A stretch of 64,000 nt of DNA from Butyrivibrio sp. (GTDB taxonomy: Bacteria; Bacillota; Clostridia; Lachnospirales; Lachnospiraceae): contig SVFZ01000053.1 in assembly GCA_015056585.1 (NCBI GenBank), positions 21,304-85,303 of the forward strand, given 5' to 3'. Below are positions 23,183 through 55,203 of this stretch, piece after piece. How positions within the stretch are numbered: the first letter of the stretch is position 1; each line of letters starts with the position of its first letter. The notes beneath the pieces are model-generated. The model was not told the DNA's origin. It saw nothing but the letters and a program-made list of their open reading frames with translations, and searched no databases. The position numbers were made by a program, and so were the translations under genes.

Positions 23183-23321
23183 ATCATTAAAACAAACGGC
23201 CTGAATGAAGCTGCATTGCTATTATGAACCTTAATATTGTGATAAAATATATGTAAATACGTAGATTCTTTTTATGAGCTTTAAGCCTATGCAAATCCAT
23301 GCGATACCGGGAGATTACAGT

Positions 23322-26149: not shown

Positions 26150-28189
26150 TTACAGATCAAGCTCGTAATTAGCTATCATTACGGGCTTTTTTTGCGCGAC
26201 AAATACAGGTACTAATGGGCATGAACTGCCGTAAAAGGCATCGAAGCCGGAAACAAAAACTTCGATGTCTTTTTTATCAAAGGAAACTATAGTAATGCCT
26301 TCTTTGTTAGCCATAGTGAGAACTCTTTTGTAAAATTCAGAAGTGAGTTCGCCTTCATGCATGATATCGGATGACCTGACTGACATGGCCTGGTTGTTCG
26401 GGCTTGGATAAAGGCAAATTGATACCTCGATTTTACCGGAATTATCCTTTAGTATGGCGATTCTGTTTTTTATTGCCTCCTCAAAGTTTTTAGTATGCTC
26501 AGCATATTCATAGGTGCTGATGCAGTAAAGAAGCTTTTTGAGGTTGCCTTGGTGCGCTTTCAAAGGGTATAGATCAGGTATCACGCAAATGCGCTTTTCC
26601 CATACAAGGCGGGTACTTTCATCACCGGTAAAAGAGGTGAGGTTATTGATATAGTGCGTGCGTAAAGTTTCAGAATGCAGATAAATTCTGTCTGCGAGTA
26701 TAACAGCAGGCATGGACACGTAAAAGTCCATAACCTTTTGATCGGGAATATCTTCGTTGGTAAAATCAGCCACCGGACCTATTGGGATGTAAACAAGCTC
26801 TTTTGTATAAAAGATCAGATTTTCAGCATAGTAATAGGGCGGGATGGTGAGATATGGATTTTCAGCATCATAGGGATCCTGAATATAGATGGTATCCGGC
26901 ATCTGCTGTTCGAGATCATAGTCTTCCCAGCTGATGACTGGTAGATTATCCGGATATTCACTAAGACGCACGCAGACATCTATCTCGTCATCACTTAAAC
27001 TTACCTGACCGAGGCAGTTTTTTGGCATGAGAGGAAGAGGTACCACTACAACTTCTGCGTTAGGATCTGACATTTCTTTGTCATAAGCGGCTTTAAAGCC
27101 TTTCCACTCTGCCGGACCTATGGGAAGGAATAAAACCTTTCTTTTTTGAGTTTGGGCGGCAGTTGTAGAAAGGTTTTCGAAACTGTTTTTTACAGTGCCA
27201 GCAGAAGTTTGATTTAAGTCGAAGGAAAAGCCACGGTCGATATTAAGAAGGGAGTCATCAAAAGAGAACCTTGGAAGAGCCATACCAGTAGACCTTTCAA
27301 AGTTTTTACGCTGTCCTTCAAAAGAAGGATAATCATGGCCTGCAACGCCTTTTTTTATATAATTATATTCGCCGTAGCGTGAGGAAAGGACTTTGTTATA
27401 GTGGGATGGAACCGGAATCAGAGTATCTTCAAATGGAAGATATTCGACGCTTTCATAGTACTCCTTTGGCTCTCCGGGATTTCCTTTCAGTCCCCAGGGA
27501 AAAATCTGGCAAAGTCTGTCGGACTGCTCTTTTGGGACACGCGCCATTTGTTTTTCTGCGAGACGATAAAGAGAAACAGCCAGGTCATGACTGTCTGATC
27601 TGTCTATAAACTTATAGGAATATTTCTTTTCCAGTTTGTCTAAATTGGTATTTAATGCAGTTGCACCAGCGGTGCTGTTTATAACGCTTTCAGCAACAGC
27701 GAGAATAAACATGATTTCATCGCAGCGTTCTTTTTCCTGAGAAGGATCTTTGTACAGATAATCTTTTACAAAAATATCAACTCCCGTTAGCCAGGGATAA
27801 TTATAGTGCCGGTTAAGATAGGATTCGTCGAAGTTTATGCGGGTGCTGCTTACTACTCTTGATAAAAAGAGCCAGTGTCCTTCATGGCGTTCGTAATCGT
27901 GAATACAAAAATCAGGCGGGAGCTCATGGTCAGCAACCTGGCGGAATTTAATGTAGTTGTCTCTTGTCATGCAGATATCAAGGTCATCATCCCAAGGCAC
28001 AAAACCACCATGCCTGACTGCACCCAAAAAACTGCCCCAATCTGCAAAGTAAGTGATATCATGTTTCTTGCAGATTCGGTCAATTTCAGAAAGAACGTCC
28101 AAAGCACATGCCCAGGACTGTTTGACTGCAGTTGGAATGTAGAATCCGTTTCTGATTTCGTCGCGGAAAAAATCGATGCTATGATTCAT
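26150..28189 (-). CDS. LicD family protein with the same C-terminal fusion (paralog of 24051 gene)
   Basis: YFADWGSFLGAVRHGGFVPWDDDLDICMTRDNY; C-term RKVLFLPIGPAEWKGFKAAYDKEMSD...IYIQDPYDAENPYLTIPPYYYAENLIFYTKELVYIP...AFYGSSCPLVPVFVAQKKPVMIANYEL. Confidence 0.83.
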   Translation of the reverse strand: MNHSIDFFRDEIRNGFYIPTAVKQSWACALDVLSEIDRICKKHDITYFADWGSFLGAVRHGGFVPWDDDLDICMTRDNYIKFRQVADHELPPDFCIHDYERHEGHWLFLSRVVSSTRINFDESYLNRHYNYPWLTGVDIFVKDYLYKDPSQEKERCDEIMFILAVAESVINSTAGATALNTNLDKLEKKYSYKFIDRSDSHDLAVSLYRLAEKQMARVPKEQSDRLCQIFPWGLKGNPGEPKEYYESVEYLPFEDTLIPVPSHYNKVLSSRYGEYNYIKKGVAGHDYPSFEGQRKNFERSTGMALPRFSFDDSLLNIDRGFSFDLNQTSAGTVKNSFENLSTTAAQTQKRKVLFLPIGPAEWKGFKAAYDKEMSDPNAEVVVVPLPLMPKNCLGQVSLSDDEIDVCVRLSEYPDNLPVISWEDYDLEQQMPDTIYIQDPYDAENPYLTIPPYYYAENLIFYTKELVYIPIGPVADFTNEDIPDQKVMDFYVSMPAVILADRIYLHSETLRTHYINNLTSFTGDESTRLVWEKRICVIPDLYPLKAHQGNLKKLLYCISTYEYAEHTKNFEEAIKNRIAILKDNSGKIEVSICLYPSPNNQAMSVRSSDIMHEGELTSEFYKRVLTMANKEGITIVSFDKKDIEVFVSGFDAFYGSSCPLVPVFVAQKKPVMIANYELDL
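26161..26193 (+). terminator. Plus-strand terminator-like hairpin overlapping the 3' end of the convergent 26150 gene
   Basis: GCTCGTAAT TAGCTATC ATTACGGGC TTTTTTT. Confidence 0.65.
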
Positions 28190-29689: not shown

Positions 29690-29734
29690 AGAAAATGATA
29701 GAGTATAGTCTCACACTTGAAACAGGTACTAAGT

Positions 29735-30913
29735 ATGGTAATACAACATAACTTGTTTGCTATGAATGCAAATCGAATGCACAACATAATTGCCAAGGAC
29801 AAAGCCCGCATTTCTGAAAAATTATCTTCCGGATATAAGGTAAACCGTGCGGCTGATGATACTGCAGGTCTTGCAATATCCGAAAAAATGAGAAAACAGA
29901 TCCGTGGTCTTAATCAGGCGTCTTTAAACGCACAGGATGGTATTTCATGTGTGCAGTCAGCTGAAGGTGCACTTAATGAAGTACATGAGATGTTGCAGCG
30001 GATGAATGAGTTATGTGTAAAAGCAGCCAATGATACAAATGATGTTACAGATCGCGAGTATATCCAAAGCGAAATAGATGCACTCGTAGAAGAAATAGAT
30101 CGGGTTGGAGCGACCACGACTTTTAACGAAATAAAGCTTTTAAACGGAGAAAGGCAAGACCATATTACAGCGCTAACTCCGACACTCGATTACGCAGGCA
30201 TTCAGAATCAGTTGCTTGTACAGGCAACTGAGGATAGTTTGGCATATTTCTCGGTTAAACCTCTGAACGAGGGGGATATATTGACCAAAACTGAAGGTTC
30301 TGAAACTGTTTTTTATAAGGTAAACGGTTCAGATGTAGATGCTGATGGAACAGCAGAGCATCCATATTCAATTGAGAAAAAAGAAGTCTATAAACATATA
30401 TGTGAAAGAATCCTCGATGCCAATGTCATTCAGACGGGGCATGTAAGCGTCTCATATGCTATAGGCGGACCGGATGAGGGAAAGTTCAATATAGAGTTTA
30501 AAGCTCCGCTGAGTATCAAGCTACAGATTGGATCAGAAGTCGAGGATGAAAACCAGATGACTATCATTATCAATCCGATAAATAGTTCATCATTGGGAGT
30601 CCATAACGTTAATGTCACCGGCGCGACAAATGATGGAGCATTAACAGGAATGGATTTGGTCAAAAGAGCTATAGAAAAAAACTCAAGAGAAAGATCAAAC
30701 CTTGGAGCATATCAGAACAGGTTAGAGCACACAATTAAAAATCTGGATAATGTTGCTGAAAATACTCAGGCTGCAGAATCCAAGCTCAGAGATACAGACA
30801 TGGCGCAAATGATATCTGAGATGGCTAAAAAAGATATCCTTATGCAGGCCGGACAAATGATTTTATCACAGGCAAACAAAAGTAAAGAGGCAGTGGTTCA
30901 ATTGCTTCAGTAA
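29735..30913 (+). CDS. Flagellin 3, divergent, with central insert
   Basis: MVIQHNLFAMNANRMHNIIAKDKARISEKLSSGYKVNRAADDTAGLAISEKMRKQIRGLNQ...QAGQMILSQANKSKEAVVQLLQ; extra segment about 30151-30519. Confidence 0.94.
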   Translation: MVIQHNLFAMNANRMHNIIAKDKARISEKLSSGYKVNRAADDTAGLAISEKMRKQIRGLNQASLNAQDGISCVQSAEGALNEVHEMLQRMNELCVKAANDTNDVTDREYIQSEIDALVEEIDRVGATTTFNEIKLLNGERQDHITALTPTLDYAGIQNQLLVQATEDSLAYFSVKPLNEGDILTKTEGSETVFYKVNGSDVDADGTAEHPYSIEKKEVYKHICERILDANVIQTGHVSVSYAIGGPDEGKFNIEFKAPLSIKLQIGSEVEDENQMTIIINPINSSSLGVHNVNVTGATNDGALTGMDLVKRAIEKNSRERSNLGAYQNRLEHTIKNLDNVAENTQAAESKLRDTDMAQMISEMAKKDILMQAGQMILSQANKSKEAVVQLLQ

Positions 30914-33037: not shown

Positions 33038-33091
33038 CGCACCTGCGATTTGAAAGAAGTTATGTTCTTTTCATTTTGCGGGTGCGTTTTT
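33038..33091 (+). terminator. Rho-independent terminator after surface protein gene
   Basis: CGCACCTGCGATTTGAAAGAA...TTCTTTTCATTTTGCGGGTGCG TTTTT. Confidence 0.8.
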
Positions 33092-33108
33092 GCATTGAGA
33101 GGATGAAT

Positions 33109-34152
33109 ATGAAAGAAAAGAAACTTACAACTTATGATGTACTACATGTGGGGGATAGCTTCTACTATGTTTGTAATGAATTTAATTTGTTGATCAAATT
33201 CACTGGAAAGGGAGAGCATAAAATTATCGGGGTTATTCCTGAAGAGTCTTTGGATGCAAAAGCCCTGATTTCGCAGATGATGCTCATCAATGAAAGAATA
33301 ATACTAATACCGCTAAATGCCAAAAACATTTGGATTTATCAAATAAATAATCAAAAATGGCATTGCATTAGAATTGAAAATGAGAGCTGTGAATACAAGT
33401 TTATGAAGGCAATCCAGGAAGCTAATAAATTATATTTTTTCCCTAGTAGATATAAGAAAATGATAGTTCTCGATGTTTTGACAGATGAAGTAAGATATAT
33501 AGAAATTGCAGATAAATCACAAGGAATATGTAATAGTACATTTTTTAGATCGGACATAGTGGTAAAAGACAAGATGGTATATGCGGCGTATTGCGGAGGT
33601 GACTATATCTTCGAATTTAATTTGCTTGATGAGACCTATGAATGGAAAAAAGTGGGAACTGATGTTCAAGGATATTGCGGAATTGCATGGGATAGTGAGA
33701 AATTCTGGTTATTGTCTAAAATGAATGAGAAGAAAGTGTTTACTTGGGATGGAAAAGCTAGTGTTGGCACAGTAGAAATTGCTACAAGTGATAGAGGGAG
33801 AAACCGAGGCATTACAGTAATAAGCGGTGAAATCATTGTTTTAAGGGACAATGAGTCTATTACTATGAATTTAAACGCTAATAAAGATAGTTGCGACAGG
33901 GCGCCGGCGTATTTCTTTTGTAAAAAAAATGCTAATACGACTTCTTTTTTGCGATATAATAGTGAATATACATGGATTCAAAATGATGCTGAGCATAGAA
34001 TCAATTTAACGTTGTCGGATAAGATGATAAACAACTATTTCAGTGGAAAGATGGATATTAAAGAGAGTTATTTCTTTTCTCACAATGAAGTAGTCACTGA
34101 GAATGAATTATTTAGGATTTCAGATTTCGTTAAGGTATTATCTAGCCAGTAA
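33109..34152 (+). CDS. Hypothetical protein, possible beta-propeller
   Basis: Repeating short beta segments (FYYVCNEFNLLIKF, KLYFFPSRYKKMIVLDVLTDEVRYIEI, KMVYAAYCGGDYIFEFNLLDETYEWKKV, FWLLSKMNEKKVFTWDG). Confidence 0.45.
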   Translation: MKEKKLTTYDVLHVGDSFYYVCNEFNLLIKFTGKGEHKIIGVIPEESLDAKALISQMMLINERIILIPLNAKNIWIYQINNQKWHCIRIENESCEYKFMKAIQEANKLYFFPSRYKKMIVLDVLTDEVRYIEIADKSQGICNSTFFRSDIVVKDKMVYAAYCGGDYIFEFNLLDETYEWKKVGTDVQGYCGIAWDSEKFWLLSKMNEKKVFTWDGKASVGTVEIATSDRGRNRGITVISGEIIVLRDNESITMNLNANKDSCDRAPAYFFCKKNANTTSFLRYNSEYTWIQNDAEHRINLTLSDKMINNYFSGKMDIKESYFFSHNEVVTENELFRISDFVKVLSSQ

Positions 34153-34168
34153 CTATGACGGAGATGGG

Positions 34169-35449
34169 ATGAATCAAAGCTTTTTGGAACAAACCAACAT
34201 ATCAGTGGCTTACGCCGGGTTCTACAAAGATAACAATTTGCTTTTACAATCTTCATCCGGTGGAGTAGCTACAGAACTATCATCAGCTATCCTTAATGAT
34301 GGAGGTATTGTTTATGGCGCCATATATGCTGATGACTACTATTCATGTCATTACATGCGAGTGACAAGGCAGGCTGATTTGGATAGATTAAAGGGGAGCA
34401 AATATGTATATGTAGAAAAGAAAGTTATATATGAGAACGAATTTATATCGGTTTTTGAGGCAGTGCAAAAAGATATTGAGAATAGTAAGAAGGTATTATT
34501 TATAGGTCTTAGCTGTGATGTTGCAGCTTTGATGAAATGGTTTGAGGGTAAAAATATTAACCCTGAAAGTTTATACACAATTGAGCTTTTATGTGACGGT
34601 GTGACCTGTGAATGCGTGCATCAGGACTATATAAAGAAGCTTGAAACAGTTCATAATTCAAAGGTTGTATCTTTTACAGTAAGAAATAAGAGAGATGGTT
34701 GGACCCCATTATATATCATGGCAGAGTTTGATAACGGCGAGACTCATGTGGTTCCGTTTTATAATTCTGTTTATGGATATGCTTTTTTACATTACAAGAA
34801 AAAAGCATGCTACGGTTGCCAGTTTAAACAGAAGAACAGGTTTGCAGACCTGACGATTGGGGACTTTTGGGGATGCGAAGAAGGTATGAAGGAGTATAAT
34901 CGAAATGGTGTTTCGATTATATATGTTCAAACAGAAAAAGGTCAGGAAATGTTGGAATCAATCAAAAATGATTCCTTTGTTATTATGGAAACAGATGCAG
35001 AATTTGCACTGCGACACAGTCCAAGATACTTCAATGCACATTCCTTTAATAAAAATTGGGAAGAATTAGATAATGATATTAGTGCAATTGGTTTGCACCA
35101 GGCGGTGAGAAAACGCATGGTTTGCAACCCGTCTGAAAGGGCTGCTTGGAATCCGAATATGAATATCATATTATGGGGAACCGGCAACTGTTTTCACAAA
35201 CTGGCTCCGGTTGTGATTGAAAATTCTAATGTAATGTTCGCAGTTGACACCGATCCGCAAAAATGGGGAAGTCTGACTGAATATGGAATTCTTTGCAAAT
35301 CGCCGGAAGAAATATTAAAACTAGATAATGTATTTGTGATAATAATGATTGAGAATGCTTCAATAGTATGTCAGGTTATTCAAACAATACTTGATATGAA
35401 TGTCAGGTATTTCGACCAGGTTAATAATTGGATTTACAACAACGTATAG
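34169..35449 (+). CDS. Coenzyme F420 hydrogenase/dehydrogenase beta-subunit-like protein with C-terminal Rossmann-like module
   Basis: LLLQSSSGGVATELSSAILNDGGIVYGAIY...LKGSKYVYVEK; KKACYGCQFKQKNRFADLTIGDFWG; C-term MNIILWGTGNCFHKLAPVV. Confidence 0.8.
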   Translation: MNQSFLEQTNISVAYAGFYKDNNLLLQSSSGGVATELSSAILNDGGIVYGAIYADDYYSCHYMRVTRQADLDRLKGSKYVYVEKKVIYENEFISVFEAVQKDIENSKKVLFIGLSCDVAALMKWFEGKNINPESLYTIELLCDGVTCECVHQDYIKKLETVHNSKVVSFTVRNKRDGWTPLYIMAEFDNGETHVVPFYNSVYGYAFLHYKKKACYGCQFKQKNRFADLTIGDFWGCEEGMKEYNRNGVSIIYVQTEKGQEMLESIKNDSFVIMETDAEFALRHSPRYFNAHSFNKNWEELDNDISAIGLHQAVRKRMVCNPSERAAWNPNMNIILWGTGNCFHKLAPVVIENSNVMFAVDTDPQKWGSLTEYGILCKSPEEILKLDNVFVIIMIENASIVCQVIQTILDMNVRYFDQVNNWIYNNV

Positions 35450-35461
35450 ATTGGAGCAAAA

Positions 35462-36577
35462 ATGAAAATTGTTATTACTAATAATTCAATAATGTATAAC
35501 AGAGGCTCTGAGGCAGTTATAATGAGCGTTACCAAGATCTGCAGGTTTTGGTATCCTGATGCAGAAATTGTGGTAGTTAATGGAGAATATGGAGAAGTAT
35601 TAAAGGAGGTGCCTGATTCAAGTAGAGTAGTTCCTAAATACGATGCTATAGGTGAACTGACTTTTTTTATTGAAGAGATCAAAAATGCGGATGTGATTTT
35701 GATTACCGGGGCAGATAACTATGATTATGGGCTGACTAATCAACATATGATTTCTGTTAATGACGTTGTATTTAATTATTCAGATGCGAGAACTATTCTA
35801 TATGATTTATCATTAAATGATAAGCATATGAATGAAACGATATTTCATGATATTAATCGATTTTCGCTACTCACCGTAAGAGAATCCATTACAGAGGGCG
35901 TATTAAAGAAATGGTTTGCAAATAGTAAAGTGCTGAGATTTCCGGATCCGGCATTTATTCTCCCAGCAGAGCCCTGCAACTTACCATATGGTTTCATGGA
36001 GAGTAATACTATAGGGATAAACATCAGCAATCTTATCATGGGGAAAACAGTTGGTGCACCTCAAGAAATAGTGCTCGCAAATTATAAGGAATTGATTGAT
36101 TTCATACTTAGAGAAACGAAGTATGATGTTATGATACTGCAGCATGTTCTAAATAATGGATTCGACCTAGATGCAGCAAAATTACTGTATAAGAGTTATG
36201 CAGATGAAAAACGTGTATATATTCAGCAATCAGAACTTTTATCTGCTACTCAATTGAAATATATTATTTCGAAGTTGAACATGTTGGTAACCGCACGAAC
36301 TCATGCTTCAATTGCGGCATATTCTTCCAGCGTTCCTACATTGGTTGTGGGGTATTCTGTAAAGGCTTTGGGTATTGCAAAAGATCTTTTTGGGGAGAGT
36401 GAAAAGTATGTTTGTCAGGTTAGGGAACTTTCAGGGAATAAAGATATTTTAAAAAAGTTTATATATATATGGGAAAATCAGGAGCAGATCCGAGATCATC
36501 TGAAAAAAGTTATACCCTCATATAAGAAGAGTGCACTTGATTTTGGAAAGGCTTTGATGGGGGAATCATTTAGGTGA
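35462..36577 (+). CDS. Polysaccharide pyruvyl transferase family protein
   Basis: NRGSEAVIMSVTKICRFWYPDAEIVV...ITGADNYDYG...LVTARTHASIAAYSSSVPTLVVGYSVKALGIAKDLFG. Confidence 0.85.
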   Translation: MKIVITNNSIMYNRGSEAVIMSVTKICRFWYPDAEIVVVNGEYGEVLKEVPDSSRVVPKYDAIGELTFFIEEIKNADVILITGADNYDYGLTNQHMISVNDVVFNYSDARTILYDLSLNDKHMNETIFHDINRFSLLTVRESITEGVLKKWFANSKVLRFPDPAFILPAEPCNLPYGFMESNTIGINISNLIMGKTVGAPQEIVLANYKELIDFILRETKYDVMILQHVLNNGFDLDAAKLLYKSYADEKRVYIQQSELLSATQLKYIISKLNMLVTARTHASIAAYSSSVPTLVVGYSVKALGIAKDLFGESEKYVCQVRELSGNKDILKKFIYIWENQEQIRDHLKKVIPSYKKSALDFGKALMGESFR

Positions 36578-37632
36578 AAAGAAAAATAGGCATTGTAACA
36601 TTCCATTATGTTGATAATTATGGTGCAGTTTTGCAGACATGGGCGCTGAAAAAGTATCTAAATTCAATGCCGGATGTTCATGCAGAAATAATAAACTATG
36701 TGCCTGAAAATTATCAGATATTCCCTTATGAACGGACACATGAAGGGATTGAAATGATGCAAAAGAAAAGGTTAAAATATGAGACGTTTCTGCAGCAGGA
36801 AGAACTAGTTACAAAGCCAATGCAACATAGCTTGACCGGTAAGGAATATGATTATTATATTGTTGGCTCGGATCAAGTTTGGAATCTTGAATTTAGGGAA
36901 AATGTTAGTAATGAATATCTGTTCCCTAATTTGGATAGGGACGCTAAAAGAATTTCTTACGCTGCAAGCATTGGAAAAAAAATCTCCCCTAGTGAAGTAG
37001 ATCTTTTTCGGCAGTATTTAAATAAGTTCTCAGCGATTTCAGTTCGCGAACAATCAAGCGTGCAGGAGTTGGATGCGCTCGGCATCAAAGGAGTAGATAC
37101 TGTGGTTGATCCCACCCTCCTTCTGGATGCAGAAGATTACGAGACGCTGATAAAAGAGCCGGATAACAAGCCGAGTGACTTTTTGTTCTTCTTTACTTAT
37201 CCAATGGGAGATGAGGTAAGAAAATATATACCGTTTGTTAACAATCTTGCAAGGGAAAATGGTCTTTCAATTATCCATTCCTTGGTTGGATCCCCGAGCA
37301 CCCTGTTTTCCAATAATGTCGGATGTATGATGTATGAAGGTATCGGAGAGTTCCTTTGGTATATTAGAAATGCCAGAGCTATTGTCACTATGTCTTATCA
37401 CGGAGTGATTTTGGGACGACTTTTTGGAAAACCAACTTATGTAATTCATAGAGAACACGGCTGGGGAAGACTTGAGCAATTGGATAGAATAATAGATTTA
37501 AACGATTCAATCATAAAAAACGACTGGCCGATGAAAAAGTGGAGCATAAGTGATTCCAGTAAGGATCTTGGAAATCTCACGGAGTGGAGGACCAGGAGCA
37601 GGAGCTTTTTGAAAAGCGCGTTGGAAGGGTGA
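36574..37632 (+). CDS. Polysaccharide pyruvyl transferase family protein
   Basis: KIGIVTFHYVDNYGAVLQTWALKKYL...YYIVGSDQVWNLEF...FGKPTYVIHREHGWGRLEQL; GTG start overlapping upstream stop. Confidence 0.93.
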   Translation: MKRKIGIVTFHYVDNYGAVLQTWALKKYLNSMPDVHAEIINYVPENYQIFPYERTHEGIEMMQKKRLKYETFLQQEELVTKPMQHSLTGKEYDYYIVGSDQVWNLEFRENVSNEYLFPNLDRDAKRISYAASIGKKISPSEVDLFRQYLNKFSAISVREQSSVQELDALGIKGVDTVVDPTLLLDAEDYETLIKEPDNKPSDFLFFFTYPMGDEVRKYIPFVNNLARENGLSIIHSLVGSPSTLFSNNVGCMMYEGIGEFLWYIRNARAIVTMSYHGVILGRLFGKPTYVIHREHGWGRLEQLDRIIDLNDSIIKNDWPMKKWSISDSSKDLGNLTEWRTRSRSFLKSALEG

Positions 37633-37635
37633 TTT

Positions 37636-38106
37636 TTGAGCGTGGAAAGCCTAGAGAAAGGTATGTTCCCGAAAGTATGTAGGGATACAGACTATGTCAA
37701 TCAAAAAAGTATAAGGTGTGAATTGTATTATCCAATATTGAAGAAATGCTTGGAAAATGTCCAGATGGGCAAAAGTACAGCGGATTTTTTCATAAGTATG
37801 GGAGTTTCACGAGTGGGTCTTTATGCTGTGAATGAGTTTATGGATTATATCCTTAGGGATGGAAACATTAGTAAACTCAAGAATCTTTTAATCTATGACT
37901 TACACTATGAAAAGTATCATGGGCTCTATTATGGGAGGAGCGTTTTACCAGCAAATCAGGTGATACATGACTATAAAGAATCTAATATTGAAAAAGTAGT
38001 TATATGCAATCTTGTTTTCGCTGATGATATATACAGATATCTTAATGGTAAGGGGATACGTGCTGAAGATATTATGACCATTGATACACTTATTTATGGG
38101 ATGTGA
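37636..38106 (+). CDS. Hypothetical protein, possible stand-alone Rossmann-like module
   Basis: VSRVGLYAVNEFMDYILRD...VIHDYKESNIEKVVICNLVFADDIYRYLNGKGIRAEDIMTIDTLI. Confidence 0.4.
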   Translation: MSVESLEKGMFPKVCRDTDYVNQKSIRCELYYPILKKCLENVQMGKSTADFFISMGVSRVGLYAVNEFMDYILRDGNISKLKNLLIYDLHYEKYHGLYYGRSVLPANQVIHDYKESNIEKVVICNLVFADDIYRYLNGKGIRAEDIMTIDTLIYGM

Positions 38107-38131
38107 TTGAACTGTTACAGGGGGATTACTC

Positions 38132-39502
38132 TTGAAAGTTGGCGTATTTGGCTTTGGAGAAATATATAGAAGATATGCGTCTTTGCTACCTAAAGAACAG
38201 TCAGTGGTTGTAGTCATTGATAATGGTGTTGTAGGTCATAGGGAAATGGTTGACGGTATAGCACATATCAATCCGAGAGAAGTTTTTTTATATGATATTG
38301 ACTTAGTCATTTTGATGAGCGATTCTGCTACGGAAATGCGTGAGCAACTTGAAGGGATGGGCTATGATATGTCCAAAGTAATCCATTACAGGGACTACTT
38401 TGGAGGATTGGAGCAGAAACGGGAGATGTATCTTGCAAATGAATCTGAAGTGCAAGATAAAAAGTCTTTACTTATCATTTCAAATGCATTGGGATTTCAT
38501 GGGGCTCCTGTGACAGTACTTGGCATGGTTAAATGTGCTAGGGAAATGGAATATCGAGTAAGCGTTGTAGCTTCTTCCGGGGATCAAGCTTTTATTGACG
38601 AACTTAATTTGGCAGGGGCAAGTGTTATTATACAACCATGGATTGAACATGCTTCATGGGATAATCTTAAATGGACTAACGAATATGATGATATAATAGT
38701 CAATTCGCTTCCGGTGATAATCTGTGCCCTGACGATTTCTATGCATAGAAGAACAATCGTATGGTTGCATGAAAGTCCGGATACATATATATCTTTACGT
38801 TTTTGGTGGGATAATATTCAGCGTGGCATAGAAGTTGGTGACATTGGCTTGTATGCAGTAAGTCGCAGAGCAACAGAAAACTTTAGACGTTTTTTCAATT
38901 ATAGTAAAGACATTACTATTCTTTTACCATATGTCAATGAATGGAACAATAAAGGAAAACCTGCAAAAACTGATGTTGTGATTTTCGCTGTTATTGGATC
39001 GATAATAGAGCAAAAGGGACAACGTATTCTTTTAGAAGCTATTCATTCACTATCAATAAAACAGAATATAAAGTTTGTATTTATTGGAAAAGAAAATGAT
39101 TCGCTTAACTCAAAGCGCATTGTAGACAACATTTCTAATGAAAGCTGCTGTGAATATGTAGGAGAGATGACAAGAGAAGAGATGAGCAATCTATATCAAG
39201 ATATAGATGTTGTTATAGTGCCATCTTTGGAGGAGACGCTTTCACTTGCGGCGGTTGAGGCTATGATGATGGAAAAAGTCTGTATAGTGTCGGATCATTG
39301 CGGGATAGCAGAATATATCACGAACGGCGAGAATGGTTTTGTATTTCCACTTAATGAAAATAAAGCGTTGGTTAAGGCTATAGAATGGTGCGTAGCCAAT
39401 AAAGAAAAATTTATGGAAATAGGCAAGCGTGCAAGAATGACTTACGAAGACAACTTTTCCTTGAAGGTTTTTAGAGATTCATTTAAGGAGATTTTAGAAT
39501 GA
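38132..39502 (+). CDS. GT4 glycosyltransferase with N-terminal Rossmann-like module
   Basis: N-term MKVGVFGFGEIYRRYASLL; C-term FAVIGSIIEQKGQRILLEAI...VVIVPSLEETLSLAAVEAMMMEKVCIVSDHCGIAEYITNGENGFVFP. Confidence 0.88.
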   Translation: MKVGVFGFGEIYRRYASLLPKEQSVVVVIDNGVVGHREMVDGIAHINPREVFLYDIDLVILMSDSATEMREQLEGMGYDMSKVIHYRDYFGGLEQKREMYLANESEVQDKKSLLIISNALGFHGAPVTVLGMVKCAREMEYRVSVVASSGDQAFIDELNLAGASVIIQPWIEHASWDNLKWTNEYDDIIVNSLPVIICALTISMHRRTIVWLHESPDTYISLRFWWDNIQRGIEVGDIGLYAVSRRATENFRRFFNYSKDITILLPYVNEWNNKGKPAKTDVVIFAVIGSIIEQKGQRILLEAIHSLSIKQNIKFVFIGKENDSLNSKRIVDNISNESCCEYVGEMTREEMSNLYQDIDVVIVPSLEETLSLAAVEAMMMEKVCIVSDHCGIAEYITNGENGFVFPLNENKALVKAIEWCVANKEKFMEIGKRARMTYEDNFSLKVFRDSFKEILE

Positions 39503-39530
39503 TTATGTGCTAGAGAGGGTAATATCAGTA

Positions 39531-40769
39531 ATGAAGAATCTTTATGACATACGAAATGAAAAGAATCTTGTTTACGTTCTTCCTGCCGACAAACAACTGA
39601 GTGACTTGTCTATGGATAAATCGCTGCGGGTCAAAGTGATCGTACACTTGCATTATCTAGATACAGTCTCATTATGGGCTGGTTACCTTGATAATGTTCC
39701 GGATTCTATCAAGGTGTGTGTTTATTCATCAGACGATCAGGTCTTAGAGAGAGCTCAAGAGCTAGTTCATCGAAAGAACATCGTTTTTTCTAAAAAAGAA
39801 AACAGAGGTCGTGACGTAAGTACCTTGCTTGTAGCTGCTCGAAAGGAAATAGAAAATTCAGATTATTTTTGCTTTGTTCATGACAAAAAAGAAAAGCATG
39901 CCTTTTCAATGCTGGATATAAGTCATTGGATCTCTGGAATGTGGGAAAACCTTCTTGCATCTGAGTGCTATATCAAAAATATAATCAATCTTTTTTATCA
40001 AAATGAAGACATCGGATTGATGACTACTCCTGAGCCCTTGGGTGATTATGTAGATATTTGGATTCGTGGAACGTGGTATAAAAACTATGAAATGACTAAG
40101 AATCTAGCGCATGATCTAGATCTAAAAGCGGATATCGATGCTGATAAACAAGTTGTTGGGTGTGGAACATCTTTTTGGGCAAAAACGGATGCGCTCAGGA
40201 AACTAATATGTCATAAATGGAAATATGAAGACTTTCCAGAAGAACCTATGGAACATGACGGCACTTTTGGACATGCAGTTGAGCGAATATTGGGATATGT
40301 CTCCCAGGATGCAGGATATGATGTGGCTACTATAATGACTGACCATTATATTTCTGAGTATTACCCCAAATATCAGGAATATGCGCAGAAAATGTTTGCG
40401 CTGCTCGAAAGAAAAAATGAAAATCTTGATGCGTTTCGGATAATTCACCACGATGAGATAATATCTAAGGTCTTAAAATTTGTTCAACAGAATGGTTACT
40501 GTTACATATATGGTGCTGGAGCTTATGGCAAAGAAATTTTTGCAATGTTAACGGAACATAATTTTATGCCAAAGGGCTTTGTTGTCAGTGATGGATATAG
40601 GGAAGAAAAGACTTATATGGGATTACCTGTATATGAACTGTCAGAAGTCAGAAAAATGGGCTGTAATGAACCTATTATAGTTGCTATGTATTATAGTAAA
40701 CAAAGTGTGATAGAAATGACTCTTAAAAGTAAGGAGATGACCAACTATATATTTCCTTTCAAAGTGTAG
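39531..40769 (+). CDS. RgpF-like (rhamnan synthesis F) protein with C-terminal Rossmann-like module
   Basis: VKVIVHLHYLDTVSLWAGYLDNVPDSIKVCVYS...ENRGRDVSTLLVA...YFCFVHDKKEKH; C-term YCYIYGAGAYGKEIFAML. Confidence 0.85.
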   Translation: MKNLYDIRNEKNLVYVLPADKQLSDLSMDKSLRVKVIVHLHYLDTVSLWAGYLDNVPDSIKVCVYSSDDQVLERAQELVHRKNIVFSKKENRGRDVSTLLVAARKEIENSDYFCFVHDKKEKHAFSMLDISHWISGMWENLLASECYIKNIINLFYQNEDIGLMTTPEPLGDYVDIWIRGTWYKNYEMTKNLAHDLDLKADIDADKQVVGCGTSFWAKTDALRKLICHKWKYEDFPEEPMEHDGTFGHAVERILGYVSQDAGYDVATIMTDHYISEYYPKYQEYAQKMFALLERKNENLDAFRIIHHDEIISKVLKFVQQNGYCYIYGAGAYGKEIFAMLTEHNFMPKGFVVSDGYREEKTYMGLPVYELSEVRKMGCNEPIIVAMYYSKQSVIEMTLKSKEMTNYIFPFKV

Positions 40770-40777
40770 GACTGAAG

Positions 40778-42715
40778 ATGGTTATGTACAGCTTTGATGT
40801 TTATGATACACTAATTACAAGATCTGTTGAAGAGCCGAGAGACATATTTCGGCTTATGTATGATGCAATAAAAGAAAATGATGATTATCAGAAACTACGC
40901 CGTGTTATTCGGAGTGACTTTCCGGAAATTCGGGTGGCATCTGAGAAGAAAGCGGTAATAAAAAAGGGAGCAGAGGTTCTGTTAGATGATATTTATGAGG
41001 AACTGAATGTCTTCTACTTTTTAGAAAAAGACGAATTGGATAAGCTTAAGAAGCTGGAAATGCTGACAGAGTTCGAAAATAGCTCTGGTATTTCTGAGAA
41101 TGTTGAACTAATTGAGTGGTTGCGAAAGGATGGCGAAAGGATAGTTCTGATCTCGGATATGTACATGCCGGTTTCTTTTTTTATAGAGCTGTTTGAGAAG
41201 CATGCTCCGACACTAGTCGACATTCCTTTATATATATCTGGTGTTGTGGGAGTATCCAAAAAGGATGGACTTCTTTTTTCTTATGTACATGATAAAGAAA
41301 ATGTATCCTACCAGGATTGGACACATATTGGGGACAATATAGTTTCTGACTTCAATGTTCCTAGGCTATATGGAATAAAAACGGAATTGTTTGTTCCGTG
41401 TAGTGTAAATAGAATGAGAAATTTTGATGAGAGTTCCGAACAAAACCAGATGGTAGACAACAATGAGGATATAAGACTGCGCTCAGAGGAATATCAATTG
41501 GGATTTAACTATGTTGGGGCGGTTTTATTTGGATATGTGAACTGGATCATTAACGTGGCTTTACAGCTTGATATCAGGGAGCTTTTTTTTATAGCCAGAG
41601 ACGGTTATGTATTAAAGAAAATCGCGGACATTATCATTAGGAATAAAAATATTGATATCAGTACCCATTATCTATATGGCTCAAGAATTGCATGGAATCC
41701 TCAAAAGGATAGTGATACTGAAGCTTTATTGGCATATCTTAGGCAGGAACTTGGTCGGACAAATGGTTCATTTGCATTTGTTGATGCCAAGGGCACTGGA
41801 CAATCCGTTGACAATCTGGCAAGGCTCTTAGGGACTACAATCAATGTGTTCTATTATGCGATATTAGAGGCTGTTGCAGATAAGAAGATAAATACTTTCG
41901 TTTATGAAGCTGAGGGAGGCCTTATTGAAAACTTTTGTAGGGCTCCGCATGGCATGACTTCCGGTTATATAAGGAATGGAGATAGAATTGAGCCTGTAAT
42001 TGAACAAGATTCATTGTCGCCATCGATAATGGAAAGAATCATGGATTGTAATCAGGGAGTGGAGGATTACACCAGAGTGATCCTTAATAAATGTACCGAT
42101 AATCTGCCGCTGTTCGGTATTTCAGAGTCTATTATGAAAAAATGTGTTTCCAATCCAGGACGAGAGTTGGCGAGACTGATTGGTGACATTCCACATGACG
42201 ATAATAATAATGAGAATCTGTATGCTCCATATTTAAACAAAAAAGAGATTTATAGGATAGAATTTGAGCGGACAACAGAACCTTTAGAAAAATATTATAA
42301 GGGGTGTAATCTGCAGTATTCCTATAAACGTCTTTCTGAAGAAGAATTAAAATGGGTATCAGATTGCAAAAAGAAATATCTTCAAAGGGAGGTACCTAAA
42401 AAGGACAAGGACGCAATGCGCATAGTCATATACGCCTTTGGCATATATGGTCAGGAATTATATCATAGAACGTTGCATAATGCGGGGATTTATGTTGCTG
42501 CAGTTGTTGACAAGAATCATCAGAAATATCAGAACATCGATATTAAAGTAGAGGGGTTGAATGTGCTCTATGAGATTGAATATGAGTATGTTGTGATTGC
42601 GCTTTTGAGTAAAAGTCAGACACTGACAGTTAATAAGATGCTTGTCAGTGCAGGAATTGATAAAGACAAGATTATTGGTTACAAGGATTTTTTGAATCAT
42701 TACTGGGAAAAATAA
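40778..42715 (+). CDS. HAD-type hydrolase-like protein with C-terminal Rossmann-like module
   Basis: YSFDVYDTLITRSVEEPRDIFRLM; GERIVLISDMYMP; DWTHIGDNIVSDFNVPRLYGIKT; C-term MRIVIYAFGIYGQELYHRTL. Confidence 0.83.
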   Translation: MVMYSFDVYDTLITRSVEEPRDIFRLMYDAIKENDDYQKLRRVIRSDFPEIRVASEKKAVIKKGAEVLLDDIYEELNVFYFLEKDELDKLKKLEMLTEFENSSGISENVELIEWLRKDGERIVLISDMYMPVSFFIELFEKHAPTLVDIPLYISGVVGVSKKDGLLFSYVHDKENVSYQDWTHIGDNIVSDFNVPRLYGIKTELFVPCSVNRMRNFDESSEQNQMVDNNEDIRLRSEEYQLGFNYVGAVLFGYVNWIINVALQLDIRELFFIARDGYVLKKIADIIIRNKNIDISTHYLYGSRIAWNPQKDSDTEALLAYLRQELGRTNGSFAFVDAKGTGQSVDNLARLLGTTINVFYYAILEAVADKKINTFVYEAEGGLIENFCRAPHGMTSGYIRNGDRIEPVIEQDSLSPSIMERIMDCNQGVEDYTRVILNKCTDNLPLFGISESIMKKCVSNPGRELARLIGDIPHDDNNNENLYAPYLNKKEIYRIEFERTTEPLEKYYKGCNLQYSYKRLSEEELKWVSDCKKKYLQREVPKKDKDAMRIVIYAFGIYGQELYHRTLHNAGIYVAAVVDKNHQKYQNIDIKVEGLNVLYEIEYEYVVIALLSKSQTLTVNKMLVSAGIDKDKIIGYKDFLNHYWEK

Positions 42716-42736
42716 AAATTCTGTAAAGGTGAAAAT

Positions 42737-43888
42737 ATGGTATCAGTTATTGTTCCAATCTTCAATGCAGAACAAAGTTTGGAAAAATGTTTGACCAGTA
42801 TCCAAGGTCAGACATTGAACGATTTAGAAATAATATGTGTGAATGATGGTTCCACCGATGGAAGCCTTGATATTATTAGAGAATATGCTGTCCGGGATAA
42901 TAGGGTGGTCATTGTTGATAAAGAGAATGGTGGGCTTGTTTCAGCTAGGAAGGCAGGACTTGCAAAGGCTTCGGGAGATTATGTTGCTTTTGTAGATAGT
43001 GATGATTGGATTGAACCTGAAATGTATGAAGAATTACTGCAGATTGCAAAGGAATATGAATGTGATGTGGTGTGCGGTGGATACTTTTTTGAAGGAGATT
43101 ACATCAGTAAGCATGTGGATTCGGTTGGATCGGGGTTGTATAAAGATGAAGGAATAAAAACTATCAGAGAACTGTCCATTATGAATTTGAAAGACCGTGG
43201 AGTGGGCATAGGTGGATCTCTTTGCACCAAACTATTTTCATGTAAGGTAATAAAAAAAGCTTATGAGTCGGTGTTTGAAAATCTGACTATTGCTGAAGAT
43301 AAGGTCACTACTCTTTTTACTATGCTAAATGCACAAAGCGTCTACGTTGTTGATAAAGCATATTATCATTATGTGAAGAATATGGGGTCCATGGTCAATT
43401 CTGGTGATATGGACTATCTTATGCATATCCAACATGTTTGGGAACATTTCAGAAAAGCATATGAACATCCTGGTTTTACGGAACAAATGCGTATTCAAGC
43501 GGAAGTTTATCTGACGGACATCCTCTACAAAGGCATAAATGGAAGAATGGGGTTTTTATGTAAAAATATGCTTTGGGTAGATCCATATTGGTTAAAAGAG
43601 ATACCGGATGGGACACATGTTTTGTTATACGGTTTTGGGGATTTTTTGGAAACTTATAAAAGACAGCTTCAACATTACCATAATTTAGAATGTGAGGGGT
43701 GCGTTTCAATGCCTGAAAAGGCCAAAGAAGCAGAATTTGACTACTTAGTTGTTGCAATAAAGAATAAAGCAAAGGCGGATGAAGAAACAGATAAACTTGT
43801 GGCAGCAGGAATTAGCGCTGAAAAGATACTATGGTTCCCACAGGATGAAGTATACTGGAAATTTATAGAAGCGAACGGCTGGATATGA
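42737..43888 (+). CDS. GT2 glycosyltransferase with C-terminal Rossmann-like module
   Basis: MVSVIVPIFNAEQSLEKCLTSIQGQTLNDLEIICVNDGSTDGS...VAFVDSDDWIE; C-term HVLLYGFGDFLETYKRQL. Confidence 0.93.
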   Translation: MVSVIVPIFNAEQSLEKCLTSIQGQTLNDLEIICVNDGSTDGSLDIIREYAVRDNRVVIVDKENGGLVSARKAGLAKASGDYVAFVDSDDWIEPEMYEELLQIAKEYECDVVCGGYFFEGDYISKHVDSVGSGLYKDEGIKTIRELSIMNLKDRGVGIGGSLCTKLFSCKVIKKAYESVFENLTIAEDKVTTLFTMLNAQSVYVVDKAYYHYVKNMGSMVNSGDMDYLMHIQHVWEHFRKAYEHPGFTEQMRIQAEVYLTDILYKGINGRMGFLCKNMLWVDPYWLKEIPDGTHVLLYGFGDFLETYKRQLQHYHNLECEGCVSMPEKAKEAEFDYLVVAIKNKAKADEETDKLVAAGISAEKILWFPQDEVYWKFIEANGWI

Positions 43889-43889
43889 G

Positions 43890-45452
43890 ATGAAGCTACT
43901 AAACCTTGATGAAGTAAATGAGTTGACCGGAGATATTATTGTCTTTGGTTTTTCTGAGAAACACCTGCTTGAGTTCTTTAAAGCAGGTCGTTTTGATGTA
44001 AATGTTTTAGGAATAATAGAGGAAAACCAAAGGCATCAGGGAATCAAGACTGTCTGTGGAAGGAAAATAAATGTTGTATCCCCGGATGACGCGGCTTCTT
44101 TATATGAGGATGACTGCAAGTTCCTTATAATGAACGATTACTATGAAGAGGCATACATAACAGTTGTTCAGCATGTAGTATATAAACTCTTGGGAAAAGA
44201 GGATGTAATAATTTATTACTTCTTGGATAAAGAATCAAGGATATACCATGATTATTGCAGGAAATATGAAAATACACCGCTTGATGATGTGATTGTTTTT
44301 CGGAGTGGCCCACATGCGTCACAGTATGTTAGGGGGATGGATTATTCGGACAATGCGAGAGCTCTTTTTGAATATATGCTAAAAGCGGGGCTTAATAAGA
44401 AGTACAGGCTTATCTGGCTTGTTAAGAAGCCGGAAGATTTTGTAGAAATAGAAGAAGCAAATGCGAACGTGAAGTTTATCTCTTTTGACTGGAGTGTCAG
44501 TGAAGATGCTGAGAAAAGAGATGAGTATTATCGCGCAATTTGTCTGGCAAAGTATATTTTTATGACTGATGCATATGGGTTTTGCCGTTATGCGAGAAAA
44601 GATCAGGTCCGTGTACAATTGTGGCATGGATGCGGTTTTAAGACCAGAACCACATTTTCACGTTGTGAGCATAGATATGAGTACAATATAGTAATTAGCG
44701 AAATTTATAAGAAGATTCATCAGGAAATTTATGGGCTTAGACCGGATCAGGTACTGATTACGGGGTATCCTAAGGTGGATTATCTTTTTCATCCGGCAGA
44801 AGAATGGCTTGATAAGCTCGCCATTCCCAGGGCAAAGAAGTATATCTTTTGGCTTCCAACATTTAGGGCTCCTTTGAATCAGCTTAATGAACTTACAGAG
44901 AAGGGACCTGAAGGTGAGACCGGATTGCCTATTGTAGGAAAAGTAAAAGAACTGCAGTGCTTAAATCAGCTCTTTGAAGAACATGATGCGGTGATGGTTA
45001 TTAAACTTCACCCATTCCAGAATAAAGAAGGGATCCACATGGGAAATGATTTAAAGCAAAACATAGTTCTTTTGACCAATGATGATCTTGTTGATGCAGG
45101 ATTAGAAATTAATCAGATATTAGGACACGCGGATGCACTTATCAGCGATTACTCGTCTGCGGCTGTTGACTATCTCGTCTTAGACAGGCCGGAAGCCTTC
45201 ACTTTAGATGATGTAGAAGTATATGAAAAGAGTAGAGGCTTTGTATTTGATCCAATAAAAAAATGGCTTCCCGGAAAAGAATTGTATAATTTCGATGATT
45301 TTTATCAATATGTCGAGGATGTTCTTAATGGTTTCGAGGAATGCGCTGAAAAGAGACACCTGCTTAGTGGAAAAATGCAAAAGTGGGCCAATGATTGCAA
45401 CAGTGAAAGAGTTTGCAGCGCACTTGGGATAGGAAACAGTAGCGATTGTTGA
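43890..45452 (+). CDS. CDP-glycerol glycerophosphotransferase (TagF-like) with N-terminal Rossmann-like module
   Basis: RVQLWHGCGFKTRT...VLITGYPKVDYLF...KKYIFWLPTFRAP...VMVIKLHPFQNK...HADALISDYSSAAVDYLVLDRPEAFTLDD; N-term GDIIVFGFSEKHLLEFFKAG. Confidence 0.9.
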   Translation: MKLLNLDEVNELTGDIIVFGFSEKHLLEFFKAGRFDVNVLGIIEENQRHQGIKTVCGRKINVVSPDDAASLYEDDCKFLIMNDYYEEAYITVVQHVVYKLLGKEDVIIYYFLDKESRIYHDYCRKYENTPLDDVIVFRSGPHASQYVRGMDYSDNARALFEYMLKAGLNKKYRLIWLVKKPEDFVEIEEANANVKFISFDWSVSEDAEKRDEYYRAICLAKYIFMTDAYGFCRYARKDQVRVQLWHGCGFKTRTTFSRCEHRYEYNIVISEIYKKIHQEIYGLRPDQVLITGYPKVDYLFHPAEEWLDKLAIPRAKKYIFWLPTFRAPLNQLNELTEKGPEGETGLPIVGKVKELQCLNQLFEEHDAVMVIKLHPFQNKEGIHMGNDLKQNIVLLTNDDLVDAGLEINQILGHADALISDYSSAAVDYLVLDRPEAFTLDDVEVYEKSRGFVFDPIKKWLPGKELYNFDDFYQYVEDVLNGFEECAEKRHLLSGKMQKWANDCNSERVCSALGIGNSSDC

Positions 45453-51426: not shown

Positions 51427-52545
51427 TCAGAGTTTCACCATAATCTTTACATATTCTTCGGATTTCCTTCGCATAATATCAAGACCCTTATCCAAATCTT
51501 CAAGAGAAAATCTGTGGGTGATAAGGTCAGCAGGGGAAAAATGGGGCTGCGAAGATTTGGGATTATTTTTCCAGGCATCAAGACGCGAAAGAACGTAGCG
51601 CCAGTCATCTTCCGGACCATAATATGAAGAATTCCAGGTTCCAAGGAGAGTCAGTTGATTTCTTAATATTTTCCAATAACTGTCTTTGGACAGTTCCATG
51701 TCAGAAGCAGGGTTTCCCACCAGCATTACTGTTCCAAGTGGCGCAGTGCACTTAACAGCCTGTTCATAGCTTTCACTTCGGCCTATACATTCAAAGTAGC
51801 AGTCGGCGCCATGGCCTTTTGTTTTTTCGTATATAAAGCTTACGGGATCTCCATAGCGGACATCGCAGAAGCAGTCTTCGTCATACCCCATCTGAAGGAG
51901 CTTTTGCTTCTGTATATCTTTATTTCCGATACATAACACATTATTAAAGCCTGCATCCTTTAGGAAAAGAGCCATCAAAAGCCCAATGGTTCCAAGCCCG
52001 CACACTACGATAGCGGAATCTGTGCTTATATAAGGATAAGAAGATGCCGGAGAACATGATGATTCCGGACCAAGAGATACGCCAAGTGCTCTTCTCATGG
52101 CGTGGACAGCCACAGCCATAGGCTCAAACATCGCAGCTTCTTCGTCAGATACACTGTCAGGCAGAGGTAAAAGATTCCACAAAGGTGCGCAGACGTATTC
52201 GGCAAATCCGCCGTCACGGCGCGATCCGAGATAGTTGTAGTTTTCGCACATTTCATAGTGGGAAGTAAGGCACTGAGCGCACTTCATGCAGGGAATCAGA
52301 GGAAAGATGCCGACTCTTTTGCCAATCAGATCTGTATTGTCGCTGCACTCCTCTACACATCCGGTAAATTCATGTCCGGGAATAAGAGGCATATTGTGAG
52401 CGCCGGTCTTGAAAATTCGCGGAATATCAGAGCCGCAGATGCCGCAGGCCGTGACCTTTATCAGGGCTTCGCCGGGCTTTGGTGAAGGCCTGCCGGTCTT
52501 TGTCAGTTTCAGATTTCCAATTCCATATAAAATCTGGGCTCTCAT
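51427..52545 (-). CDS. Zinc-dependent alcohol dehydrogenase (MDR), polyol-phosphate dehydrogenase type
   Basis: MRAQILYGIGNLKLTKTGRPSPKPGEALIKVTACGICGSDIPRIF...PLIPGHEFTGCVEE; start at 52545 with GGAGG. Confidence 0.88.
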   Translation of the reverse strand: MRAQILYGIGNLKLTKTGRPSPKPGEALIKVTACGICGSDIPRIFKTGAHNMPLIPGHEFTGCVEECSDNTDLIGKRVGIFPLIPCMKCAQCLTSHYEMCENYNYLGSRRDGGFAEYVCAPLWNLLPLPDSVSDEEAAMFEPMAVAVHAMRRALGVSLGPESSCSPASSYPYISTDSAIVVCGLGTIGLLMALFLKDAGFNNVLCIGNKDIQKQKLLQMGYDEDCFCDVRYGDPVSFIYEKTKGHGADCYFECIGRSESYEQAVKCTAPLGTVMLVGNPASDMELSKDSYWKILRNQLTLLGTWNSSYYGPEDDWRYVLSRLDAWKNNPKSSQPHFSPADLITHRFSLEDLDKGLDIMRRKSEEYVKIMVKL

Positions 52546-52714
52546 CTTTGCCTCCGGAATTATGCACAATAAGTGAAGTACAATGTAGATAATAATATTT
52601 TATACTAAATACTGATAATAATTCAATTAAATAGGGAATGTTAGTGCTTTGTGAAAACTATTAAAGCAAATTCCGCTTCCTTTTCTTAAATTTCACTAAA
52701 ACTTTCCTAAACTC

Positions 52715-54422: not shown

Positions 54423-54504
54423 GGAAAACCGGAATCGTTGACCGGAAAATGGGCTTGCTGTTCATAATACGAAAAAAAGTAACAATAATTTGGGTGGGGA
54501 ACAA

Positions 54505-55203
54505 ATGAATATAGCGATAATTCTTGCAGGTGGTGTTGGAAGCCGCGTCAAGTCAGATATCCCAAAACAGTTCGTTGAGCTGTCGGGGAAAATGATGATA
54601 ATTCACAGCATGGAGCCCTTCGGGGAGTCGATGTTTGTAAACAATATCCAGATTGTTGCGGATAGTTCCTACAGGGAGATGATTGAGGACGCCTTGACGG
54701 ATGAACCTCTTATATCCGAAAAAGTTCTTGGCTTTTCAGATCCGGGAGAAAACAGGCAGCTTTCAATATATAACGCCCTGAAAGATATTGAGAAAATGGG
54801 CCTTGGAGACATGGTGGATGGTGTTATCATCCATGATGCCGCAAGGCCTTTTGTCATGCGCGAAACTATAGAGGAGTGCCTGCTTTCCCTTGACAAGCAT
54901 GATGGTGCAATGCCTGTGCTCCCGATGAACGACACCGTGTACTTTAGCAGGACCGGAGAAAGAGTGGATGAACTCTTAAACCGTAACACTATTTTTGCGG
55001 GACAGGCGCCGGAAGCCTTCAGGTTTCACAAGTATTTGAAGGCGAATGAAGATCTTTTGCCGGACAAGATCCTTATGATAAAAGGCTCTACGGAACCTGC
55101 AATAATGGCAGGAATGGATGTGGCGATGATTCCCGGAGATCAGAGGAACTTTAAGGTTACTACCGATGTGGATCTGGAGCGGGCCAAAGAGTATTACAGA
55201 TAA
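54505..55203 (+). CDS. IspD/TarI family cytidylyltransferase
   Basis: MNIAIILAGGVGSRVKSDIPKQFVELSGKMMIIHSMEPF...IIHDAARPFV...KVTTDVDLERAKEY. Confidence 0.93.
   Translation: MNIAIILAGGVGSRVKSDIPKQFVELSGKMMIIHSMEPFGESMFVNNIQIVADSSYREMIEDALTDEPLISEKVLGFSDPGENRQLSIYNALKDIEKMGLGDMVDGVIIHDAARPFVMRETIEECLLSLDKHDGAMPVLPMNDTVYFSRTGERVDELLNRNTIFAGQAPEAFRFHKYLKANEDLLPDKILMIKGSTEPAIMAGMDVAMIPGDQRNFKVTTDVDLERAKEYYR

Follow-up and report, generated by a model that had tools for sequence, protein, structure and literature searches.

A 64,000-nucleotide stretch of Butyrivibrio sp. DNA (from contig C43, in a draft genome of 3.44 Mb; here called the window) contains a single-strand run of genes at positions 34103-45449, all on the plus strand, in which one Rossmann-type module of ~90 to 100 amino acids (aa) is attached to enzymes of different classes. 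The run opens with an FrhB/FdhB-like protein (34103-35446; Pfam FrhB_FdhB_N/C), which carries a C-terminal module (aa 352 to 437) and whose start is more likely the ATG at 34169 than position 34103. Two members of the polysaccharide pyruvyl transferase family without a module match follow (35462-36574, Pfam 1.2e-19; 36574-37629, Pfam 1.9e-34) and then a 156-aa open reading frame (ORF) in which a module stands alone behind an N-terminal helical extension (37636-38103). Next come a family 4 glycosyltransferase (GT4) with an N-terminal module (38132-39499; Pfam Glycos_transf_1, 3e-32), an RgpF-like glycosyltransferase with a C-terminal module (39507-40766; Pfam RgpF, 8.8e-60), a 645-aa HAD-like protein with a C-terminal module (40778-42712; weak HAD models in NCBIfam) and a family 2 glycosyltransferase (GT2) with a C-terminal module (42737-43885; Pfam Glycos_transf_2, 3.4e-37). 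Directly 3' of the GT2 gene lies the gene for a TagF/TarL-like polyol-phosphate transferase with an N-terminal module (43890-45449; Pfam Glyphos_transf, 5.5e-54), with which the module run ends. The nearest named relatives of the TagF-like protein were mostly from Lachnospiraceae, and its scores against the TarL and TarF models were far below the cut-offs. At the start of the cluster, a 358-aa protein of unknown type (33076-34149) had weak Pfam matches that were probably due to chance.

An earlier sequence-only reading had proposed that seven of these genes share the module. A profile was built from 132 modules, all from other genomes, and was run against every window ORF and 2000 shuffled decoys. 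Exactly the seven proposed ORFs took ranks 1 to 7 (E values of 1.6e-16 to 7e-4, against 0.038 for the best decoy), with the segments at the expected places and protein ends. No eighth window ORF was detected at an E value of <0.1, and this profile found no module in the neighbours starting at 33076, 35462 and 36574. The hidden Markov model scores were 1.6e-16 for the RgpF copy (40482-40766), 3.5e-14 for the HAD copy (42404-42712), 2.8e-11 for the FrhB copy (35156-35446), 1.5e-11 for the GT4 copy (38132-38416), which also agrees with the consensus of the N-terminal GT4 class, and 1.2e-7 for the GT2 copy (43601-43885). The two weakest scores, those of the stand-alone copy (37798-38103; 4.4e-4) and the TagF copy (43935-44240; 7e-4), were each backed by further evidence. 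The ORF at 37636, previously suggested as a possible free-standing module, has the layout of a stand-alone subfamily from other genera, down to its N-terminal extension (W...GK...YF...GY), which was read by eye. The TagF N terminus was not picked up by a first profile but was detected once the profile was enlarged and TagF relatives were added; it was tied to the family by a homologue (L108; 3e-15), by a profile-profile alignment (hhalign probability, 93.8%) and by the order of secondary-structure elements in an AlphaFold model. The full TagF model, built from seven sequences, was of moderate quality (predicted local distance difference test [pLDDT], 70) and was used for N-terminal topology only.

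Pairwise Smith-Waterman comparisons against 300 shuffles linked the HAD copy to the GT2 copy (z = 10.9), the GT4 copy to the HAD copy (z = 8.4) and the FrhB copy to the GT4 copy (z = 7.7), with weaker links from the HAD copy to the RgpF and FrhB copies. As only four of the seven were joined in this way, profiles were needed. A Pfam scan of the whole window proteins picked up their catalytic domains but no module. Overall, these comparisons indicated that all seven modules are homologous, and the proposal that the same unit sits on unlike enzyme classes was borne out by the profile for the modules and by Pfam for their catalytic partners.

The conserved features of the module were examined in 412 copies. 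An aromatic residue before the loop was present in 96%, G13 in 95%, G15 in 87%, [GA]18 in 77% and the strand-2 aspartate in 82%; the full GxGxx[GA] motif was present in 61% of all copies and in 88% of GT2 copies. The window copies depart from this pattern, with the full motif in one of seven. The GxGxxG-like turn ascribed to all of the segments by the sequence-only reading was therefore complete in the RgpF copy (GAGAYG) and incomplete in the other six (GTGNCF, preceded by W in the FrhB copy; AFGIYG in the HAD copy; GFGEIY in the GT4 copy; GFGDFL in the GT2 copy; a degenerate AVNEFM in the stand-alone copy; and GFSEKH), and the glycine loop of the TagF copy is lost. The FGxGxIY form of the GT4 loop recurs across the GT4 N-terminal class. 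The second strand expected in most copies was recognised as VDTD, VIDN and VVDKN in the FrhB, GT4 and HAD copies, respectively, while the strand-2 region of the GT2 copy was deleted in the alignment.

Structure prediction for the HAD copy gave a confident Rossmann-type model (pLDDT, 96.8) with the order b-a-b-(a)-a-b-a-b-a. A Foldseek search with this model ranked 2g6t first (E value of 1e-3; template-modelling score on the query of 0.74; root mean square deviation of 2.5), followed by NAD(P)-binding dehydrogenases, Rex and 3nkl. When the module profile was compared with PDB sequences, 3nkl was the best match (7.4e-10), 2g6t the second (1.5e-7) and Rex gave 4.4e-7. Among 45 modules compared with Pfam, 21 had similarity to PglD_N (best, 1.2e-7) and 14 to C2185-like_N, and the NeuD model of NCBIfam matched 35 of the 45. 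On these matches the module belongs to a known nucleotide-binding fold as one of its divergent branches, with the window copies falling under the curated cut-offs. The coherent AlphaFold model and the profile with decoys argued against unrelated folds. The module is best read as a mobile Rossmann-type accessory domain in the neighbourhood of PglD_N, the CAC2185 N-terminal domain and the CapD-WbaP accessory domain. In the literature searched, an open-access subset of full texts that included PglD, TupA, LicD and fused Rossmann domains, a shared module was nowhere described.

Fusion partners were surveyed in the window and in 20 further stretches of 20 kb each, which together yielded 154 carrier ORFs. 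Pfam analysis of 105 carriers identified GT2 (n = 42), radical SAM (n = 15), FkbM methyltransferase (n = 4), WbsX, RgpF, SPASM, cytidylyltransferase-like and TIM-barrel isomerase-like (n = 3 each), TagF, GT8, pyruvyl transferase and GT9 (n = 2 each), and GT-D and TupA ATP-grasp (n = 1 each) domains, as well as GT4; polysaccharide deacetylase, GT11 and TOD1/MUCI70 proteins were further carrier types. Among other Lachnospiraceae, over 15 enzyme families have members fused to the module, which also occurs alone. It was C-terminal in 79 cases, N-terminal in 45, internal in 9 and on short ORFs in 7. Stand-alone copies were found as 36 short ORFs across 26 loci. A small stand-alone family with the N-terminal extension comprised the window ORF at 37636 and L088_16179, L092_9344, L093_17168, L101_9480, L139_4045 and L139_7309, and some of its members had an apparent membrane segment. 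Tandem double-module proteins were also observed (L010, 295-504 aa, G104:C1; L087_1982-3661).

The distribution of the module was examined at the level of genomes and of loci. A five-row profile detected copies in 27 of 200 Lachnospiraceae genomes, and a 45-row profile detected copies in 89 of 250 sampled Lachnospiraceae genomes at an E value of <=1e-6, with up to 20 copies per genome. Across the phylum, the 45-row profile matched 33 of 200 genomes, although many matches were in short ORFs that, judging by their length (~210-250 aa), may be Rex or NeuD, so that the prevalence outside Lachnospiraceae is uncertain. A scan for close relatives with the HAD protein gave no match. Copies were clustered: a genome of the same genus (G207) had 14 matches inside 669-693 kb of one contig, and in five genomes all 69 matches lay in eight loci, while the same genomes hold 178 GT2 domains. 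In the window's own genome, the module was present on 4 of 4 GT2 domains inside its two module loci and on 0 of 36 elsewhere. As GT2s elsewhere in the same genomes lack the module, it is no built-in component of the enzyme families that carry it, GT2 included. The second module cluster of this genome (L084; G000:C83:9573-19572) contains three GT2 genes and several other carriers.

An anchored survey was then used, in which two motifs from the catalytic part of the TagF-like protein served as queries against GTDB genomes. The resulting 64 loci were thus picked by the catalytic part and not by the module, and some came from profile-training genomes (L126 and L132, matching G042:C2 and G107:C54). 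In 56 loci of this TagF subfamily, the module was present on 219 of 403 upstream ORFs, 216 of them on the TagF strand, compared with 11 of 399 downstream ORFs, indicating that TagF usually closes the module run, which is also its place in the window. Seven control loci with other TagF types had the module on 0 of 119 ORFs. Fisher tests gave values of 1e-67 (upstream versus downstream) and 1e-16 (control loci), which are only guides because the ORFs within a locus are not independent. The arrangement of a GT2 with a C-terminal module directly 5' of a TagF with an N-terminal module recurred in other genera, in 24 of 52 loci as judged by similarity to the window GT2. These surveys showed that the module marks one kind of locus in many genera.

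We tentatively favour, by analogy, a role as a shared nucleotide-sensing and/or dimerisation domain resembling the accessory domain of WbaP, with degenerate copies serving for contact only. The PF13727 domain common to WbaP and PglF-type dehydratases mediates dimerisation and provides the main dimer contact in WbaP; the WbaP domain binds uridine nucleotides and is stabilised by uridine mono-, di- and triphosphate (UMP, UDP and UTP), and full-length WbaP is inhibited by UMP with an apparent half-maximal inhibitory concentration of 4.1 uM (PMC10942596). The module has repeatedly become joined, N- or C-terminally, to the enzymes of a single kind of surface-glycan locus, one usually closed by a TagF-like polyol-phosphate transferase, and it would serve there as a shared element for regulation and oligomerisation. 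Where the GxGxx[GA] loop and the strand-2 aspartate are retained, a copy may bind a nucleotide released or consumed throughout the pathway (UMP, UDP, cytidine monophosphate or a nucleoside diphosphate [NDP]-sugar), module-module contacts would give dimers or mixed complexes, and degenerate modules would retain the contact function only. Through a single signal, every step of the line could then be held back or aligned, a scheme already put forward for the domain of WbaP. Held with rather less confidence is a more general reading, in which the module is an assembly-line tag, a nucleotide-fold domain fused independently to essentially every enzyme class of a glycan locus and also present as free copies; with the same reserve, one metabolite or contact hub would, through this tag, control or physically organise a polymer pathway whose chemistry varies between species.

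Several points weigh against a role in sensing. The full glycine motif is present in 1 of 7 window copies and in 0 of 23 TagF-class copies, and the damaged loop makes nucleotide binding by every copy doubtful. The WbaP domain is a remote relative of the module and may belong to a different family, and modules group by enzyme family more strongly than by locus. Furthermore, radical SAM, deacetylase and TIM-barrel isomerase partners are not known to use NDP-sugars, and a nucleotide signal for these would be an assumption.

Loop degeneration in six window copies makes pure docking a strong rival. Here, modules would bind each other or the stand-alone protein to form a multi-enzyme complex, the nucleotide fold being ancestral and the ligand dispensable. 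The domain has been kept in these six copies and in all TagF copies despite the damaged loop, its partners have no common substrate class, stand-alone copies with an N-terminal helical extension occur in 26 loci, and the related WbaP domain is itself the main dimer contact (PMC10942596). Docking on its own does not require the glycine loop and acidic residue that most modules retain (61 to 95%). The slight excess of likeness between modules of one locus (below) was also counted against it, and module sequence tracks enzyme family more than locus, so that the data do not point to a docking code particular to each locus. Docking alone, though less favoured, was graded nearly as likely as the sensing and oligomerisation role.

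It is unlikely that each module simply serves the enzyme that carries it by binding that enzyme's nucleotide sugar, in the manner of the N-terminal domain of PglD in its acetyltransferase. The nearest Pfam and NCBIfam neighbours, PglD_N and NeuD, would fit such local handling, as would the glycine loop and strand-2 acid of most copies and the high proportion of complete loops in GT2 copies. However, the module is also fused to enzymes not known for NDP-sugar use (radical SAM, deacetylase and FrhB-like proteins), and GT2s elsewhere in the same genomes function without it.

A lack of any shared role, with old fusions inherited vertically in each enzyme family and the cluster merely receiving families that have the module, is disfavoured and improbable. 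The history of the fusions was examined with a tree of 142 modules, on which the number of label changes was 39 for enzyme family, against an average of 51 and a minimum of 48 after shuffling, and 107 for locus, against an average of 116 and a minimum of 109. Nearest-neighbour modules were on the same enzyme family in 57 cases versus 18.5 expected and in the same locus in 16 versus 6.8 expected (permutation maximum, 18). These counts indicated that the fusions are old and have descended together with the enzyme, while locus has a weak effect. Recent copying of modules within a locus was rejected, as modules have their closest relatives in other genomes, on enzymes of the same family. Such inheritance, together with a module-bearing end that was constant, with few exceptions, within the GT2, RgpF, GT4 and TagF classes of the fetched loci, is what vertical descent without a shared role would give. 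It does not account for enzymes of the same class that lack the module outside module loci (0 of 36 GT2s in the window's genome), for its acquisition by more than 15 unrelated families in one locus type or for control TagF loci devoid of modules. That the segments are unrelated Rossmann-like ends alike by a chance motif, as the pairwise scores joining just four of seven might suggest, was rejected on the profile with decoys and the coherent AlphaFold model.

Genes flanking the cluster encode a ribulose-phosphate epimerase-like protein (23274-24038), two LicD proteins (24051-26081 and 26153-28189), a zinc alcohol dehydrogenase (51430-52569) and an IspD/TarI-like cytidylyltransferase (54490-55200). 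This combination suggests a cytidine diphosphate (CDP)-polyol donor, ribitol or similar, and a polymer containing polyol phosphate; the flanking genes probably represent a CDP-polyol pathway for the TagF-like enzyme. In L116, epimerase-, dehydrogenase- and cytidylyltransferase-like genes also lie 3' of TagF (similarity judged by eye). The C-terminal half (~400 aa) of both LicD proteins had no Pfam match. A flagellin gene (29717-30910) lies ~3 kb upstream of the cluster, and flagellin-like ORFs were also seen near the TagF-like gene in L114, L144, L146 and L154; a putative role of the cluster in flagellin glycosylation is possible.

A portable domain on glycosyltransferases, polyol-phosphate transferases, radical SAM and ATP-grasp proteins and deacetylases of the same loci offers an experimental handle on two problems, namely how cytoplasmic enzymes encoded by a variable glycan locus stay coordinated and how newly exchanged enzymes are integrated into an existing line. 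It also supplies an annotation for many unassigned protein ends, N- or C-terminal, and for many small ORFs of gut bacteria.

Four known domains can be compared with the module. PglD_N (PF17836), of the NeuD, PglD and VioB sugar acetyltransferases, is alike in length, in the GxGxxG loop, in the strand-2 aspartate followed by K..G and in the IPV and VIIA strands, and PglD binds its UDP-sugar near this domain. However, no window protein matches PglD_N at an E value of <=1 or reaches its Pfam cut-off of 23.4 bits (L097, in its stand-alone copy, narrowly misses it at 21.8), and the window partners are of the GT, TagF, HAD and FrhB types, with no left-handed beta-helix acetyltransferase. C2185-like_N (PF22674) is represented by 2g6t of Clostridium acetobutylicum, which, from the names, is presumably CAC2185, and we know of no function for this family. 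The module shares the fold of the 2g6t N-terminal domain in the Foldseek comparison; the matches to this family among the 45 modules did not extend to any window protein, all of which missed its cut-off of 27 bits (the GT2 module of L025 scores 26.9). CA_C2186-2199 are listed as sugar genes, and the numbering places CAC2185 beside them (PMC4000134). The NAD(H)-sensing domain of Rex resembles the module in both profile and fold and belongs to a nucleotide sensor, although Rex is a DNA-binding repressor rather than a glycan enzyme.

The accessory domain of WbaP, PglF and CapD (PF13727 region; 3nkl) resembles the module in being one domain common to functionally unrelated glycan enzymes. PF13727 was not among the 25 Pfam families listed for the modules; in the module-matched part of 3nkl, CoA_binding and PglD_N were above their cut-offs, and PF13727 matched at positions 81-168 with an E value of 5e-4, under the Pfam cut-off. 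The WbaP-type domain accompanies a four-helix membrane bundle and occurs with two classes of enzyme, whereas the module is found on more than 15. If the sensing role is correct, the module would extend the one-size-fits-all feedback of WbaP from a single enzyme to an entire pathway.

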